From assembly GCA_903835685.1 (NCBI GenBank), contig CAILNX010000054.1, positions 124,001 to 188,000 on the forward strand: a DNA stretch of 64,000 bases, written 5' to 3'. The translations under genes and the position numbers were made by a program. Source of the stretch: an uncultured delta proteobacterium. GTDB lineage: Bacteria; Desulfobacterota; Desulfovibrionia; Desulfovibrionales; Desulfovibrionaceae. Below the pieces are notes generated by a model. That model had not been told where the DNA came from, did no database searches, and saw only the letters and a list, made by a program, of their open reading frames with translations. Position 1 is the stretch's first letter. The number at the start of each line of letters is the position of its first letter. This document shows, piece by piece, positions 34,448 through 41,583 of the stretch.

Positions 34448-37400
34448 TTACCAGTCCACGGGCAGCTTCACTTTCTGCCCGGCCTTGTTGGTGAACAGGA
34501 CGTGCTTGTTGGCCCGCCCGAAGAGATAGACATCCCGGGTGATGGCCACGTCCGCCCGGCAGTATTCGTCGATCAGGTCCATTCTTCCTTCTTTCCACCA
34601 GGCCAAGGCCTGCAATCCGTCTGCGGTCTTGCCCGCGTCCAGGGTGGCTTCGGCGATGTTGTCCAGCTTCAGCCGATAGCCCAGGCGACCGTATATATGG
34701 GTCAAAAGGTCCAGGGTGGGCAGCTTGCGGTACTCGAAGCGATGCACTCCGGCCAGGACCGCGTAGTCGAAGCGCGAAATATTAAAACCCACCACCAGGT
34801 CGAATTCGAGCAAGCGCTCGGCCAGCTCCGGGACCCTTTCTTCCTCATAACTGAAAAATTCATCCTTGCCCGAGTCATAGAGCACGGCCACGGACACGCC
34901 CATGCGGTCGGCCCGGTTCCAGCCGCCGACCTCCAGGGCCGAACGGCGGGTCTCGATGTCCAGGACCCCGAAGCGCAGCGGCCCGGGCCGCATCTCCATT
35001 GGCAGCATCATTTCTTCCACGACGCCAAACACCTCCACGGTTTCGCGAATCCCAGGCAACAACACCTCGGCCTTCGCCTTTTTCTCCCCGCCGCCATCTT
35101 TGGCCACTTTCGCCTGCCGCTCGCCCCACCCATACCCAAAAGTTTTGGGGGAGGGAGAGGGGTCCAGGGGAGAGGGAACCCCTTTTCCCAAAAAGGGGTT
35201 CCCTCTCCCCTGGTCTTGCTCTTCTCCCATTCCCCGCACCATCCCCTCCAGCATCAACCGGGCAGCGGCCTTGTCCATGGGGCGGTTGCCGGACCCGCAT
35301 TTGGGGGAATGCACGCAGGAGGGGCAGCCCAGTTCGCAGGGGCATCCGGCCACGACGGCCAGGGTGGAGCGCAGGAGGTCTCCGGCGTGGCGGAAGGCCT
35401 GGCGGGCCAGCCCGGCCCCTCCGGGCAGGCCGTCGTATATGAACACGGCCGGGCCGTCCACCTGGGGATGAAAGGGGGTGGAGATGCCGCCCAGGTCATT
35501 GCGGTCGGCCAGGACCAGCAGCGGAAGGATGCCGATGGCAGCATGCTCCAGGGCGTGGATGCCGCCCATGAAATGGAGCTGGGCCTCTTCAGTGGCCCGC
35601 ATCAGGGGCTTGGGGATCTCGAACCACAGACCTTCGGTCTCGAAGATCAGGGGGGGCAGGTCCAGGGGCACCAGGGTCAGCAGCGCCCCGCCCCGGACCT
35701 GGCGCTTTTCATAGCCGGTGACCTGGTCCGTGACCCTGAGCCGACCAAAGGCGACCCGGGTCCCGCCCAGGTCGGCCTGGCCCTGGATGTCCAGGATTTC
35801 CGTGGATTTCTCCCCCCGGGTGCGGGTGTAGTAGCCCACCCGGGCGGGCGCGGCGCGCACCGTGGCTGTGCTGAAATCCAGCTCGGTGATCAGATAGGTC
35901 TTGCCCCGGTGCAGATACACGGCTCCGGGGTGGGTCTCGGTGTGCGCCCGAAGGCCATCGATCAGGCCGATGACCTTGCCGGTGGTGGTGTCCTCGATGG
36001 TCATGGTCCGGCCGGCGCCGCGCAGGTCCACGTCCTGATGGGGCCGCTTGGCCGCCGCGTGCAGTTCCCACCCGTCGGCCGAGCGTAGGAGCAGTCCCCG
36101 GTCGGCCATGTCCTGGGCCAGGGAGAGGACGGCGGGCGCGGCCAGGAAATCCTCCAGTTCCGGGCCAGGACCCAGGCGCAGGGGGAGCTCGGCTGCGGCG
36201 CAGACCAGGTGGCGCTCCAGGATGACCGGGTTGTGGGGATTGACCACGGCATCCTCGGGCGGCCGGGAAAAGAAATCATCGGGATTGCGCATGAAATACT
36301 GGTCCAGGGCGTCCTCCTGGGCCACCAGGGCCAGGACGCTGTCGCGCTGAGCCCGGCCCACCCGGCCCCCGCGCTGCCAGGTCTGCATGATGGTGCCGGG
36401 GTAGCCCACCAGGATGCACAGATCCAGGCCACCGATGTCGATGCCCAGTTCCAGGGCGCTGGTGGAGATCACGGCCAGGAGTTCACCCGAAGTCATGCGG
36501 GCCTCGATCTCCCGGCGCTCGGCAGGCAGGAACCCGGCCCGGTAGGCGCTGATGCGGCCCTTGAATTTGCCCGAGCGTTCGGCGGCCCACAGGGCGATGA
36601 GTTCGGTCATCTTGCGGGACTGGGTGTACACGATGGTGCGCAGGCCCTGTTCCAGCCCGGCCTGGAGGAGTTGGATGGCCGCTCCGGACGGGCTTTCCTC
36701 GGGATTGAGGAAAAGCACGTGGCGTCTGGCCCGGGCCGCGCCGGACTCGGTCACGGCCGTGACCGGCAGGCCGGTCAGTTCGGCGCAGAGTTCGGCCGGA
36801 TTGCCCACGGTGGCCGAGGAAAAGATGAAGGTGGGCTCGGACCCGTAATAGCGGCAGATGCGCAGGAGCCGCCGGAAGACCTGGGCCATGTGCGCGCCCA
36901 TGACCCCCCGGTAGGTGTGTACCTCGTCCACCACCACGTAGGAGAGCCCGGCGAAGAATTTGGCCCAGGTCCCGTGGTGGGCCAGAAGGGAGAGGTGGAC
37001 CATCTCCGGGTTGGTCATGAGCACATTGGGCAGGGTCTTGCGGACCTTCTCCCGATCCGAGGGCTTGGTGTCCCCGTCGTACAAGGCGGCCCGGGGGCCG
37101 GGCGCGGGCAGGAGTCCGGCCAGTTCGCCAAAGGCCCGCCACTGGTCCTGGGCCAAGGCCTTCAAGGGGAAGAGGTACAGGGCTCGGGCTTCGGGATTGG
37201 CCAGGACCGCCTCAATGACCGGGAGATTGTAGACCAGGGTCTTGCCGCTGGCCGTGGGCGTGGCGATGACCACGTGGCTGCCCTCACGGGCCAGGTCCAT
37301 GGCCTGGGTCTGGTGGGCGTAAAGGCGGTCCACGCCAAGGGCCCTTACGGCGGCGGCCAGGGCTTTCGGCCAGGGCCGGGCCGGGTCGGCGTAGCAGGCC

Positions 37401-37507
37401 TCGGCCCCCGGAAGAATCCGGTGGTGCACGATCTGGGGACCCAGGCGGGGCGAATCTTTGAGGGCGTCGATGTACGCCTGGATGGTGGAGGACATGGCTT
37501 GAGGCAA
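34448..37507 (-). CDS. MrfA-like DEAD-box helicase fused to an MrfB-like 3'-5' exonuclease
   Basis: 1019 residues. The N-terminal 480 hold a superfamily 2 helicase (Q-like YAHQTQAM, Walker A ATPTASGKT, VVVDEVHTYRG, SSATVGNP, GRVGRAQR). A DUF1998/MZB region follows, with CPCELGCPSC and CG near 720-735 as a four-cysteine zinc site. After a linker (about 755-800) comes an RNase H-like exonuclease from about 840 (LDIETRR, VGFNISRFDYAVL, YCRADVAITRD: a DEDD set). In Bacillus the helicase (YprA/MrfA) and the exonuclease (YprB/MrfB) are separate proteins for excision of mitomycin lesions; here they are one chain. The linker is encoded by a palindromic repeat (35136-35213). Confidence 0.88.
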   Translation of the reverse strand: MPQAMSSTIQAYIDALKDSPRLGPQIVHHRILPGAEACYADPARPWPKALAAAVRALGVDRLYAHQTQAMDLAREGSHVVIATPTASGKTLVYNLPVIEAVLANPEARALYLFPLKALAQDQWRAFGELAGLLPAPGPRAALYDGDTKPSDREKVRKTLPNVLMTNPEMVHLSLLAHHGTWAKFFAGLSYVVVDEVHTYRGVMGAHMAQVFRRLLRICRYYGSEPTFIFSSATVGNPAELCAELTGLPVTAVTESGAARARRHVLFLNPEESPSGAAIQLLQAGLEQGLRTIVYTQSRKMTELIALWAAERSGKFKGRISAYRAGFLPAERREIEARMTSGELLAVISTSALELGIDIGGLDLCILVGYPGTIMQTWQRGGRVGRAQRDSVLALVAQEDALDQYFMRNPDDFFSRPPEDAVVNPHNPVILERHLVCAAAELPLRLGPGPELEDFLAAPAVLSLAQDMADRGLLLRSADGWELHAAAKRPHQDVDLRGAGRTMTIEDTTTGKVIGLIDGLRAHTETHPGAVYLHRGKTYLITELDFSTATVRAAPARVGYYTRTRGEKSTEILDIQGQADLGGTRVAFGRLRVTDQVTGYEKRQVRGGALLTLVPLDLPPLIFETEGLWFEIPKPLMRATEEAQLHFMGGIHALEHAAIGILPLLVLADRNDLGGISTPFHPQVDGPAVFIYDGLPGGAGLARQAFRHAGDLLRSTLAVVAGCPCELGCPSCVHSPKCGSGNRPMDKAAARLMLEGMVRGMGEEQDQGRGNPFLGKGVPSPLDPSPSPKTFGYGWGERQAKVAKDGGGEKKAKAEVLLPGIRETVEVFGVVEEMMLPMEMRPGPLRFGVLDIETRRSALEVGGWNRADRMGVSVAVLYDSGKDEFFSYEEERVPELAERLLEFDLVVGFNISRFDYAVLAGVHRFEYRKLPTLDLLTHIYGRLGYRLKLDNIAEATLDAGKTADGLQALAWWKEGRMDLIDEYCRADVAITRDVYLFGRANKHVLFTNKAGQKVKLPVDW
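35136..35213. repeat. Palindromic repeat element inside the helicase-exonuclease gene
   Basis: Two inverted repeats lie side by side: CCCAAAA/TTTTGGG (35136-35150, one-base centre) and a perfect 23-bp arm pair (35164-35186 with 35191-35213, four-base loop). They keep the reading frame open and encode a Gly/Pro/Ser-rich linker (RGNPFLGKGVPSPLDPSPSP) between the DUF1998 and exonuclease domains. This has the look of a mobile palindromic repeat family inserted in frame; other copies are not in the window. Confidence 0.8.
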
Positions 37508-37584: not shown

Positions 37585-37618
37585 TTGACCCGGCTTCCAT
37601 CGTGCTTATCTCTATAAT
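37585..37618 (+). promoter_or_regulatory. Promoter of the structured RNA
   Basis: TATAAT (37613-37618) is a perfect -10 box in an AT-richer stretch. TTGACC (37585-37590) resembles a -35 box; the spacer to TATAAT is 22 bases, but TATCTC at 37607 gives 16. The start of transcription would be close to 37620-37625. Confidence 0.6.
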
Positions 37619-37619
37619 T

Positions 37620-38068
37620 ACCATCGGGGCAGTCCCGCTGGATCGGTTGAACCCCTAACGGAGGTTGGAATCGAATAAACACTGTCTCCCATACCAGGCG
37701 CAACGAGGCGCCCCGTAGGGAGGGCCACCGGTAGGCGATTGAGTCGCCCAGAAAAGCCGAAAGGCTACGCGAGGCGAACGGCCGGTCGGATCCGGCAAGC
37801 AGAACCGGTTGGCTCTTCCGTTGATGACTAAAACGTGAGCATCATCGGAAGAAGAGCAGAGAGATTCGACCAGTGTTCAGTCGAGAGCAAAGTTGAAGTT
37901 TTTTGTACCGGTACAGCGACAAGACGAGTTCATGCAGACAGAGCAACCGTCTTTAGGAAAACCTAGGTTGAGAAGAGCGAATCAGGCTTCACCAGCGTAA
38001 AAGCTCTGAATCTGAAACGTCAAAGGCATAAGGCCCCGTCGTGGTAACGCGACGGGGCCTCTTTTTTG
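37620..38068 (+). ncRNA. Structured noncoding RNA of about 450 nt, class not recognised
   Basis: No plausible coding frame covers this stretch, yet it has a promoter at its left end and a perfect terminator at its right. It is full of short helices: GGGG/CCCC (37626/37652), CTCCC/GGGAG (37686/37718) enclosing GGCGC/GCGCC, GGCGA/TCGCC (37734/37744), AGCC-GAAA-GGCT (37755-37766, GNRA loop), GCCGG/CCGGC (37781/37792), CTTCCG/CGGAAG enclosing TGATG/CATCA (37815-37851), TCGAC/GTCGA (37866/37880), CAACC/GGTTG enclosing TAGG-AAAA-CCTA (37944-37970) and AGAGC/GCTCT (37974/38003). Length is close to RNase P or tmRNA, but the conserved GAGGAAAGTC of RNase P and the tmRNA ends and tag are not found. It is divergent from the helicase gene and converges with dnaE. 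Confidence 0.7.
38031..38067 (+). terminator. Rho-independent terminator of the structured RNA
   Basis: AGGCCCCGTC (38031-38040) pairs perfectly with GACGGGGCCT (38051-38060) over a 10-base loop, then C and six T. The stem may also help end dnaE transcripts from the other strand, though no T-run follows on that side. Confidence 0.9.
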
Positions 38069-38100: not shown

Positions 38101-41100
38101 TCAGGCCGCGGGGCGGCAGCCAGCCAGGAGCCCGGCCTGCCAGGCCTCGATTTCCTTCCAGAAGTCCGGCCCGGGCTGGACCTTGAATATTTCCCCCAGG
38201 GTCAGGGAGCAGAGGCACTGGTCCAGGCGCACCTGCACCTTGACCGGGACGTGGCCGGGGTAGCGGGCCAGGATGGCCTTGAGCCCCTCCAGGTCATCGA
38301 CGCCCGGGTCCTGGGGGCTCAAGGGCACCAGCACGGGTGCCGCAGCCTGGCTCACGCTCTCGGTCAGCAGGGTCATGGACTCGGCCAGGATCTTGACCGC
38401 GCGCGGGCCGTCGTCCCCATCCCCTTGGTCCTTGTTGTCGATTTTGGCCACCACCAGGAGCGGCTGGTCGTTGCCCAAAAGGTGCTTCACCAGGGCATAG
38501 ACCTGGGGCAGGATGGTCATCTCGCCAATGGCCGAGAGATCCTCAATCCCGCAAAAGGCCATCTTGTCCCCTTTCTTGGTGATGTATTCCTTGACCGCAG
38601 TGACGATGAGCGCGGTCTTGACCTGCGAGCCGTTGGCCATCTCCCGGCATTCGTCCAGAGGGGTCACGTGCAGGCGGCGCAGGTCCCGCTGAAAGGCCAG
38701 GAGGGGATGGCTGCTCAAAAAAAAGCCCAGGGCCTCTTTTTCCAGGCGCAGCTTTTCCTCATCCGGCCATTCCGGGGTGGACAGCTCTTCCAGGCGCGGC
38801 CCCGGGACCTTGGTCTCCGCCCCGCCGCCCCCGAGCATGCCCAGCATGGAGATCATGCCGCTGGCCTCGGACTTGGCCTTGGCCTGGCCGTGGGACACGG
38901 CCTTGTCCAGGGAGGCCAGGAGCCCGGCCCGGGTGGGGCCGAAATGGTCCATGCCCCCGCTGGTGATGAGATACTCAATGACCCGCTTGGTGCATTTGCG
39001 CAAATTCACCCGGGCGCAGAAGTCCACCAGGTCCAGATACGGCCCATTCGTCTCCCGCTCGGCGATGATTTCCCGGATGGCCTCCTCGCCCACGTTCTTG
39101 ATGCCGCCCAGGCCGAAGATGATGTTGCCCTCGATGATGGAGAAGCGGAGCTGGCTTACGTTGATGTCGGGCTTGAGCACGGTCAGGCCCATTTCCCGGC
39201 AGGCGTTGATGTACTTGAAGACCTTGTCCTGGTTCTCCTGCTCCGAGCTGATGAGCGCGGCCATGAACTCCACGGGAAAATGGGCTTTCAGGTAGGCGGT
39301 GAAATAGGAGATGAGGGCATAGGCCGCGCTGTGGGACTTGTTGAACCCGTACTCGGCGAACTTCTCCATCAAATCGAAGATGTCGTTGGCCTGCTTCTCG
39401 GGAATGTCTTTGGCCCGCGCGCCTTCCAGGAACCGCTGGCGCTGGGCGGCCATCTCGGCCGCGTTCTTCTTGCCCATGGCCCGGCGCAGGAGGTCGCCCT
39501 CACCCAGGGAGTACCCGGCCAGGACCTGGGCGATGTTCATGACCTGTTCCTGGTACACGATGACCCCGTAGGTGGGCCTTAAGCAGTCTTCCAGGAGCGG
39601 GTGGGGGTACTCGACCTTGACCTCGCCATGCTTGCGCATGATGAATTCCTCGACCATGCCCGAGCCTAAGGGGCCGGGCCGGTACAGGGCCAGCATGGCG
39701 ATGATGTCCTCGAAGCAGTTGGGTTTGAGCATGCGCAGGTATTTGCGCATGCCCGAGCTTTCCACCTGGAACACGCCGTCGGTGTCCCCCCGGGAGAAGG
39801 TTTCATAGGCCTTCTGGTCGGTCAGGGCCAGGGTGTCCAGGTCCGGGGCCTTCTTGCCCTGGCCCCGGATGAGCTCCAGGCAGTCCTCGATGACGGTCAT
39901 GTTGCGCAGGCCCAGAAAGTCGAACTTGATGAGCCCGACCTTTTCCACCCGCTTCATGTCGAACTGGGTGACGGTCTCACCCTTCTTCCCCTTGTACAGC
40001 GGGAGGTACTCGGTCATGGGCTTGTCCGAGATGACCACCCCGGCCGCATGGGTGGAGGCGTGGCGGCAGAGGCCTTCCAGGCGGCGGGACACGTCCAGGA
40101 GCTTCTTGATCCGGGCGTCGCCGTTGGCCAGAATCTGGATCTCCGGCTCCTTTTCCAGGGCCTTGGCAATGGTCATTTTCAGCTCGTCCGGGATGAGCTT
40201 GGCGATCTTGTCCGTCTCGCCAAAGCTCATGCCCAGGGCCCGGCCCACGTCCCGAACCACGGCCTTGGCCTTCATGGTCCCAAAGGTGGTGATCTGGGCC
40301 ACGGAGTCCTCGCCGTACTTCTCGGACACGTAGCGGATGACCTCGGTGCGACGGCGCTCGCAGAAGTCCACGTCGATGTCCGGCATGCTCACCCGCTCCA
40401 CGTTCAGGAAGCGCTCGAACAGCAGGTTGTACGGGATGGGGTCCAAGTTGGTGATGCGCAAGGCCCAGGCCACCAGTGACCCGGCCGCTGATCCGCGGCC
40501 CGGACCGACCGGGATGCCATTGTCCTTGGCCCAGTTGATGAAATCCTGCACGATGAGGAAATAGGCCTGGAAGCCCATCTTGGCGATGACCTCCAACTCG
40601 TATTCCAGACGCTCCCAGTAGGCGGGCCCGTCCACTTCATAGGTGATCTGGGCCAGGCGCTTCTTCAAGCCCTCCCGGGCCAGTTTCTGGAATTCCGTCT
40701 CAATGGTCATGCCCTCGGCCAGGGCATAGGCCGGGAAATGGTGCTTGCCGAGCTCGAGCTCCAGGTTGCAGGCCTCGGCGATGCGCTGGGTGTTCTCAAT
40801 GGCCGCCGGGCAGTGGGCAAAGGCCGCCTCCATCTCCTCCGGGGCCTTGAAATAGAGCTCCCTGGTCTCGAAATGCATGCGCCGGGGCGTGTCCACCGTG
40901 GTGGCGGTCTGAATGCACAAAAGGAGATCGTGGGCCTCGTAGTCGTCAGCGCTCAAGTAATGGCAGTCGTTGGTGGCCACCAGGGGCAGGCCTGTGCGCT
41001 TGGCGGTCTCCAGGAGCAGGTCGTTGACCCGGTACTGCTCCACGAGCTTGTTGTCCTGGAGTTCGAGATAGAAATTCCCGGGAAACAGGGACGCGTATTC

Positions 41101-41583
41101 CCGGGCCCTCTCCACCCCGGCCTCCAGCCCCTCGTTCATGAGCGTGCGCGGGACCTCTCCGGCCAGGCAGGCGGACAGGGCGATGAGCCCTTCCCCGTGC
41201 TGCTTCAACAGCTCCTTGTCCACCCGGGGTTTGTAGTGGAAGCCTTCGATGTAGCCCTTGGAGACCATGCGCACCAGGTTCCGGTACCCGGTCAGGTCCT
41301 TGGCCAGGAGCACCAGATGGTGGCCGGCCTCGCCCGAGGATTTGGCGGTCTTCTGGGTGCGGCTGCCCGGGGCCACGTAGACCTCGCAACCGATAATGGG
41401 TTTCAAGCCCGCGTCCTTGGCCGTCATGTAGAAGGTCAGGGCTCCGAACATGTTGCCGTGGTCGGTGATGGCCACGGCAGGCATGCCGAAGTCCTTGGCC
41501 TTGCGGCACAAATCCTTCAAGCGGATGGCCCCGTCGAGCAGGCTGTATTCGGTATGGCAGTGGAGATGGACAAAATCAGACAT
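38101..41583 (-). CDS. dnaE: DNA polymerase III alpha subunit
   Basis: The replicative polymerase subunit. 1160 residues, the usual DnaE length. The N-terminal PHP domain has HLHCHTEYSLLDG and ITDHGNM with intact metal ligands. The C-family polymerase core has GPGRGSAAGSLVAW and PDIDVDFCERRR, with the catalytic aspartates. Finger, tandem helix-hairpin-helix and OB-fold regions follow (near 1000-1080), with a short C-terminal tail. It is transcribed alone toward the structured RNA. The ATG follows a GGGGG tract. Confidence 0.96.
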   Translation of the reverse strand: MSDFVHLHCHTEYSLLDGAIRLKDLCRKAKDFGMPAVAITDHGNMFGALTFYMTAKDAGLKPIIGCEVYVAPGSRTQKTAKSSGEAGHHLVLLAKDLTGYRNLVRMVSKGYIEGFHYKPRVDKELLKQHGEGLIALSACLAGEVPRTLMNEGLEAGVERAREYASLFPGNFYLELQDNKLVEQYRVNDLLLETAKRTGLPLVATNDCHYLSADDYEAHDLLLCIQTATTVDTPRRMHFETRELYFKAPEEMEAAFAHCPAAIENTQRIAEACNLELELGKHHFPAYALAEGMTIETEFQKLAREGLKKRLAQITYEVDGPAYWERLEYELEVIAKMGFQAYFLIVQDFINWAKDNGIPVGPGRGSAAGSLVAWALRITNLDPIPYNLLFERFLNVERVSMPDIDVDFCERRRTEVIRYVSEKYGEDSVAQITTFGTMKAKAVVRDVGRALGMSFGETDKIAKLIPDELKMTIAKALEKEPEIQILANGDARIKKLLDVSRRLEGLCRHASTHAAGVVISDKPMTEYLPLYKGKKGETVTQFDMKRVEKVGLIKFDFLGLRNMTVIEDCLELIRGQGKKAPDLDTLALTDQKAYETFSRGDTDGVFQVESSGMRKYLRMLKPNCFEDIIAMLALYRPGPLGSGMVEEFIMRKHGEVKVEYPHPLLEDCLRPTYGVIVYQEQVMNIAQVLAGYSLGEGDLLRRAMGKKNAAEMAAQRQRFLEGARAKDIPEKQANDIFDLMEKFAEYGFNKSHSAAYALISYFTAYLKAHFPVEFMAALISSEQENQDKVFKYINACREMGLTVLKPDINVSQLRFSIIEGNIIFGLGGIKNVGEEAIREIIAERETNGPYLDLVDFCARVNLRKCTKRVIEYLITSGGMDHFGPTRAGLLASLDKAVSHGQAKAKSEASGMISMLGMLGGGGAETKVPGPRLEELSTPEWPDEEKLRLEKEALGFFLSSHPLLAFQRDLRRLHVTPLDECREMANGSQVKTALIVTAVKEYITKKGDKMAFCGIEDLSAIGEMTILPQVYALVKHLLGNDQPLLVVAKIDNKDQGDGDDGPRAVKILAESMTLLTESVSQAAAPVLVPLSPQDPGVDDLEGLKAILARYPGHVPVKVQVRLDQCLCSLTLGEIFKVQPGPDFWKEIEAWQAGLLAGCRPAA

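Follow-up and report, generated by a model that had tools for sequence, protein, structure and literature searches.

A conserved and covarying family of stand-alone RNAs in Desulfovibrionaceae, with a long member next to dnaE

The window, by which we mean the whole 64,000-nt stretch of DNA that was analysed, holds a plus-strand RNA locus between the minus-strand genes for a helicase and DnaE (Table 1). The RNA gene and dnaE converge, leaving a gap of 34 nt between the RNA 3' end and dnaE. Judging from the sequence, this is a real, stand-alone and non-coding RNA gene, with transcription predicted from its promoter and terminator. No reading frame of more than 53 aa lies within the RNA on either strand, in line with an earlier note on this DNA, which had seen no plausible frame here; a 78-aa minus-strand frame overlaps the RNA 3' end. 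A coding role was therefore rejected, the more so as a conserved UAA after the GGAGG motif described below speaks against a start at that site. As for the neighbouring helicase, it is MrfA-like, with MZB and HRQ1 winged-helix domains and a long C-terminal extension. By eye the extension looks like a DEDD exonuclease of the YprB/MrfB type, so that the protein would be a fusion of both partners; the tail gave no NCBIfam family when searched alone and no Pfam family at E 1e-5 when the whole protein was searched.

Table 1. Positions of the RNA gene, its elements and its neighbours in the window.
Feature	Position	Strand	Basis or remark
Helicase gene	34448–37507	-	
Predicted -35 box TTGACC	37585–37590	+	sequence; homologous T(T/G)GACA 16–17 nt before TATCTT in relatives
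Predicted -10 box TATCTC	37607–37612	+	preceded by TGCT, as in relatives; TGCTTATCT conserved in relatives
RNA gene	37619–38067	+	about 440–450 nt; start predicted; fold z -5.46; no Rfam match
Conserved family core	37644–37712	+	models R1 and R2; BLAST matches before modelling
P2 hairpin AACC...GGUU	37650–37666	+	helix counts; conserved GGAGG at 37660–37664
CCAUA element before P3	37689–37693	+	column conservation A 0.95, U 0.80, A 1.00
P3 hairpin GGCGC-AACGAG-GCGCC	37697–37712	+	covariation; family loop ANYGAG
3' region, after the core	37715–38028	+	fold z -2.72 when folded alone; single-sequence only; without detectable relatives
Intrinsic terminator	38031–38067	+	13-pair stem and six T; terminator scan, sequence
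dnaE	38101–41583	-	

The earlier note had given the gene its own promoter, with TATAAT as the -10 box. A promoter is indeed recognizable, in a different register. TATAAT (37613–37618) lies 22 nt from TTGACC, which is too far, and lacks a suitably spaced -35 box; thus, the register TTGACC-N16-TATCTC fits better, and it is the one found in homologues, which carry T(T/G)GACA-N16-TATCTT within TGCTTATCTT. Transcription is predicted to start near 37619. At the other end, the terminator with six T that had been noted is present: the arms GGCCCCGUCG...CGACGGGGCC, followed by the T run, form a canonical intrinsic terminator. It is the only terminator-like site between 37000 and 38700, a region in which shuffled sequences average 1.6 such sites; taken by itself, it could have arisen by chance. 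The GNRA hairpin claimed before is also there, as GCC-GAAA-GGC near 37760.

The stretch 37620–38068 folds with a predicted energy of -178 kcal/mol, better than 100 of 100 dinucleotide shuffles, and with a z-score of -3.72 when the terminator is left out. The opposite strand gives a comparable value (z -4.89), and folding by itself therefore sets neither the strand nor the structure. We assign the strand from the predicted promoter, the T-tract and homology. For the 3' region of the window copy, which makes up two thirds of it and lacks detectable relatives, the structure comes from single-sequence folding only. A second P3-like hairpin, GGCGA-UUGAG-UCGCC, lies within it at 37734–37748; at 1 bit it is not significant.

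How far the RNA resembles known classes was the check that the earlier note had set beforehand. Searching the whole window against Rfam 15 with cmscan returned two tRNAs only, with no family at gathering score over the RNA locus, and the same held for two sets of 20 homologue loci. Relaxing the threshold to E 10 added chance-level matches only, the best over the stretch being Transposase-2 at 21.9 bits, half its gathering score. The RNA had been judged to be neither RNase P RNA nor tmRNA, and both, together with 6S RNA, are rejected here: no covariance model for them matches at the locus, and the tmRNA, RNase P RNA and 6S RNA genes of the same genome lie elsewhere, on contigs C64, C17 and C43, respectively. 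Mobile-element RNAs (OMEGA, retron, intron) were considered and set aside as well, the neighbours being a helicase gene and dnaE; phages and plasmids, searched with the RNA by BLAST, gave no match. One viral pattern match is unsupported by the covariance model and is put down to chance, as are pattern matches in Acidimicrobiales (13.8 bits) and Micrarchaeota (12.4 bits). No earlier description of the family was found in Rfam 15 or in the main texts and abstracts of the open-access papers searched. None turned up in the abstract and outline of a study of Oleidesulfovibrio alaskensis G20 ncRNAs (PMC11124144), and in the main texts of two ncRNA papers that cover 26 and 50 bacterial genomes, respectively (PMC8632094, PMC11109978), the sole Desulfo- mention is of an unrelated gcsH motif.

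What makes the locus more than a well-folding stretch is its relatives. BLAST of the window RNA against 59 related genomes gave no match at E 0.001. In a looser search of 288 genomes from this family, ten of the top matches, each from a different genome, fell on query positions 31–96, and every BLAST-matched locus that was read shows the same layout of promoter, GGAGG hairpin, CCAUA and a hairpin with the loop AACGAG. Two models, R1 (15 sequences) and R2 (60 sequences), were built partly from the loci matched. R1 gives the window core 66.1 bits and R2 gives it 62.4 bits, and these scores are not independent since the window sequence is in both training sets; the initial BLAST matches are independent.

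With R1 at E 0.01, the core is found in 102 of 285 Desulfovibrionaceae genomes and in 28 of 44 genera, leaving 183 genomes without a match, a patchy distribution. R2 at E 0.001 matched 104 of the 247 genomes searched in the order, all of them Desulfovibrionaceae, and 4 of 297 genomes in a sample of the phylum, again all Desulfovibrionaceae; as a negative control, the roughly 290 sampled phylum genomes outside the family gave no match. Carriers known by name include Solidesulfovibrio alcoholivorans DSM 5433, with a copy at L135:604-671, as well as several Pseudodesulfovibrio and other Desulfovibrionaceae. The RNA is nearly absent from the large genus g54 (about 75 genomes), where it was lost or never gained; most members of this genus keep CsrA.

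Having several copies (at least two per genome) is common. The genus g5, which holds Pseudodesulfovibrio, has two divergent types that lie a few hundred nt to a few kb apart, as if they were sibling RNAs with different roles; at seven g5 loci (L096, L084, L088, L089, L106, L119 and L133) paired paralogues combine a CGUUAA or CGAUAA type with an AAAUAA type. In the genus g25, modules of about 200 nt are arranged head to tail in tandem, 3–5 times: the 26-nt P3 element recurs five times at a spacing of 192–217 nt in one array (L013) and four times in another (L047). This genus is probably Solidesulfovibrio, given its single named species and matching contexts. The window's own genome carries a second, short copy with its own terminator (G000:C36:16577-16651, minus strand, locus L131; fold z -3.10), flanked by genes for an EamA transporter and an HD-GYP response regulator. 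Most members of the family are stand-alone RNAs of about 190–240 nt. The length of about 450 nt in the earlier note is thus close for the window copy (about 440 nt), which is exceptional in its family.

The common anatomy was read from a 28–29-member alignment of the short forms. In order, these have the promoter, a variable 5' hairpin, P2, an A-rich stretch CGNNUAAAC, CCAUA, P3 and the terminator, in which two hairpins (P5 and P6) sit inside an outer stem GUGCGC/GCGCAC ahead of the T run. P2 has the loop NAACGGA on a stem ACC/GGU, and its GGAGG is kept in 104 of 108 distinct copies. Across the broad sets, 63–71% of P2 cells are paired, and in the short-form set 83%, with changes that are mostly one-sided; P2 is thus less certain than P3. 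P3, of the form GCGA-ANYGAG-UCGC, is the best-conserved and best-covarying element: it is paired in 92–97% of cells, the GAG of its loop is 98–99% conserved and the P3-proximal A of CCAUA is invariant. Its closing pair is A-U in 76, C-G in 23, G-C in 5 and U-A in 2 of 106 copies. The same is seen on a MAFFT alignment made without reference to the structure, on which the P3 covariation score was 0.252, as against at most 0.057 in slid controls and 0.112 in shuffles. Within the terminator domain, P5 shows changes on both sides at all three pairs. One short member, folded individually, forms P2, P3 and the three-way terminator at an ordinary energy (z -0.26); the support for the structure is therefore covariation and not stability. 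In the inner modules of g25 arrays, the consensus fold pairs the GG of GGAGG with a downstream CC. Two further pairings were tried and discarded: a pseudoknot in which the P2 loop (AACGG) would pair with a downstream CCGUU, perfect in g5 and absent from the CGAAAUAAA and CGAUAA types, and GGAG with a CUCC before CCAUA, which occurs in the window and several other copies and is not general.

These observations bear out the idea of a hitherto unrecognised structured RNA gene, possibly of a new class, and both checks proposed for it in relatives, conservation and covariation, came out in its favour. We regard it as nearly certain that the family is a real and new one. It is confined to Desulfovibrionaceae, previously undescribed and without a match in Rfam 15, and the window RNA is a long member of it.

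The genes around the copies differ. Nameable neighbours include those for a U32 peptidase, VanZ, GGDEF-EAL and HD-GYP proteins, ArsP, Tim44 and M48; several flanking frames have no Pfam match, and some may be spurious, having been picked by length in GC-rich DNA. The link to dnaE that the earlier note had proposed to follow into related genomes looks incidental, other loci having other neighbours. At four loci in two lineages (L012, L051, L059 and L135) a short RNA converges with the gene of a GGDEF-EAL protein, and two copies (L131 and L107) are near HD-GYP genes. A connection with c-di-GMP was considered and dropped, as EAL, HD-GYP and response-regulator genes occur at a few loci, and at other loci there are U32 peptidase, VanZ, ArsP, Tim44 and M48 genes. 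Because copies adjoin different genes and do not lead a following gene, we consider it very probable that the RNA acts in trans.

What might such an RNA act on? We propose that it would be transcribed from its own sigma-70-type promoter, fold, end at the intrinsic terminator and then bind a protein partner, whether as a decoy or as a docking RNA, to which it would present GGAGG and the P3 hairpin. CsrA would be the first candidate partner, because Desulfovibrionaceae have CsrA and no Pfam-detectable Hfq. Thus, CsrA was found in 233 of 285 genomes of the family, and Hfq (PF17209) in none of the 285, with control genomes positive. CsrA is present in 100 of the 102 RNA-positive and 133 of the 183 RNA-negative genomes (Fisher p 5e-9, a value to be read knowing that relatives are not independent); its loss in RNA-negative genomes may just track reduced genomes. 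The window's own genome has CsrA in the gene order flgL-csrA-fliW, and the protein retains the residues equivalent to L4 and R44 in E. coli CsrA. CsrA/RsmE sites follow the consensus A/C-N-GGA. The loops of single-module copies are mostly AACGGAGG or GCAGGAGG, which resemble such sites and are compatible with them.

Other observations count against CsrA as the partner. In array modules, GGAGG can pair downstream and the upstream A is missing, and in operons of the flgL-csrA-fliW type CsrA is already antagonised by FliW. A CsrB-like sponge, as judged by GGA density, was rejected: the window RNA (449 nt) has 7 GGA against 10.9 expected, and short members have 164 against 146, a slight excess that stems from the one conserved site. 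Without general enrichment, there would be one selected site per module only, unlike in CsrB-type sponges. Overall, we assign a probability of roughly 0.45 to the full account of a trans-acting, stand-alone RNA of a new family that works by binding a protein, not necessarily CsrA. CsrA as the partner of a protein decoy is a tentative proposal. It is doubtful whether this modular RNA, with single units of about 200 nt in most lineages and tandem arrays of up to five in one genus, is a new class through which bacteria without Hfq would chiefly regulate CsrA (or ribosome initiation) by RNA.

The same GGAGG could face the ribosome instead of a protein, by pairing with the anti-Shine-Dalgarno end of 16S rRNA (CCUCC), so that the RNA would bind or occupy 30S subunits or initiating ribosomes. 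All five bases are kept, which is more than a protein site of GGA only needs; they are kept also in array modules, where the last two G lie outside P2, and the copies read have no start codon at translation-initiation distance. However, a duplex of five base pairs is weak, the bases that follow (GGAGGGUG) extend the complement to the 16S 3' end only with a bulge, and in single-module copies the pairing of the last two G in P2 explains their conservation. We consider this mode of action unlikely.

A regulatory RNA that binds mRNAs by base pairing without Hfq, through conserved unpaired stretches (GGAGGGUG, CGNNUAAAC and CCAUA), would agree with a stand-alone transcript that has a terminator, with sibling genes in multiple copies and with a conserved unpaired A-rich stretch. 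The lack of a detected Hfq among the family genomes speaks against a classical Hfq-dependent RNA, and the seed would be G-rich, which is unusual for such RNAs; this alternative, too, seems improbable. Less probable again is a housekeeping or scaffold RNA, the core of a ribonucleoprotein in which P3 with its loop ANYGAG and CCAUA would be recognised and GGAGG would be secondary: the rank of P3 in conservation and covariation and the tandem repeats of modules in one genus would suit such a role, but the RNA is missing at E 0.01 from most genomes of the family, including nearly all of g54. Finally, a role as riboswitch, as cis-regulatory leader or as antisense RNA against dnaE is highly improbable, for although the RNA is transcribed convergently towards dnaE and ends close to it, its terminator precedes dnaE, no same-strand gene follows and relatives adjoin other genes.

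Desulfovibrionaceae are environmental and gut sulfate reducers, and a conserved, multi-copy RNA in bacteria where no Hfq is found makes it a testable question which protein or target their stand-alone regulatory RNAs use. Since a cultured carrier exists in S. alcoholivorans DSM 5433, deletion and pull-down work is feasible.

Compared with known systems, the window RNA falls in a length range similar to that of tmRNA, RNase P RNA and 6S RNA. Like OLE, GOLLD, ROOL and HEARO, it is long and has a complex fold, with the window copy at about 440 nt and arrays of up to about 1 kb; unlike them, the family has most members at only about 200 nt, shows no association with phage or transposon genes at the loci examined and gives no match to their Rfam models. 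With the Hfq-dependent trans-acting sRNAs that have sibling copies, it shares short intergenic genes, a promoter, an intrinsic terminator and at least two related copies, whereas no Hfq was detected in the host family (0 of 285 genomes) and its terminator is a three-way junction in place of a simple hairpin. CsrB/CsrC and RsmX/Y/Z are likewise stand-alone, terminator-ended RNAs with CsrA in the genome, and they have GGA in a hairpin loop, as P2 would display it here. The new family differs from these in that its P3 and CCAUA have no counterpart there, it has no Rfam match, and one conserved GGA site per module takes the place of a general enrichment, the site being multiplied in one genus by tandem repetition of the whole module.
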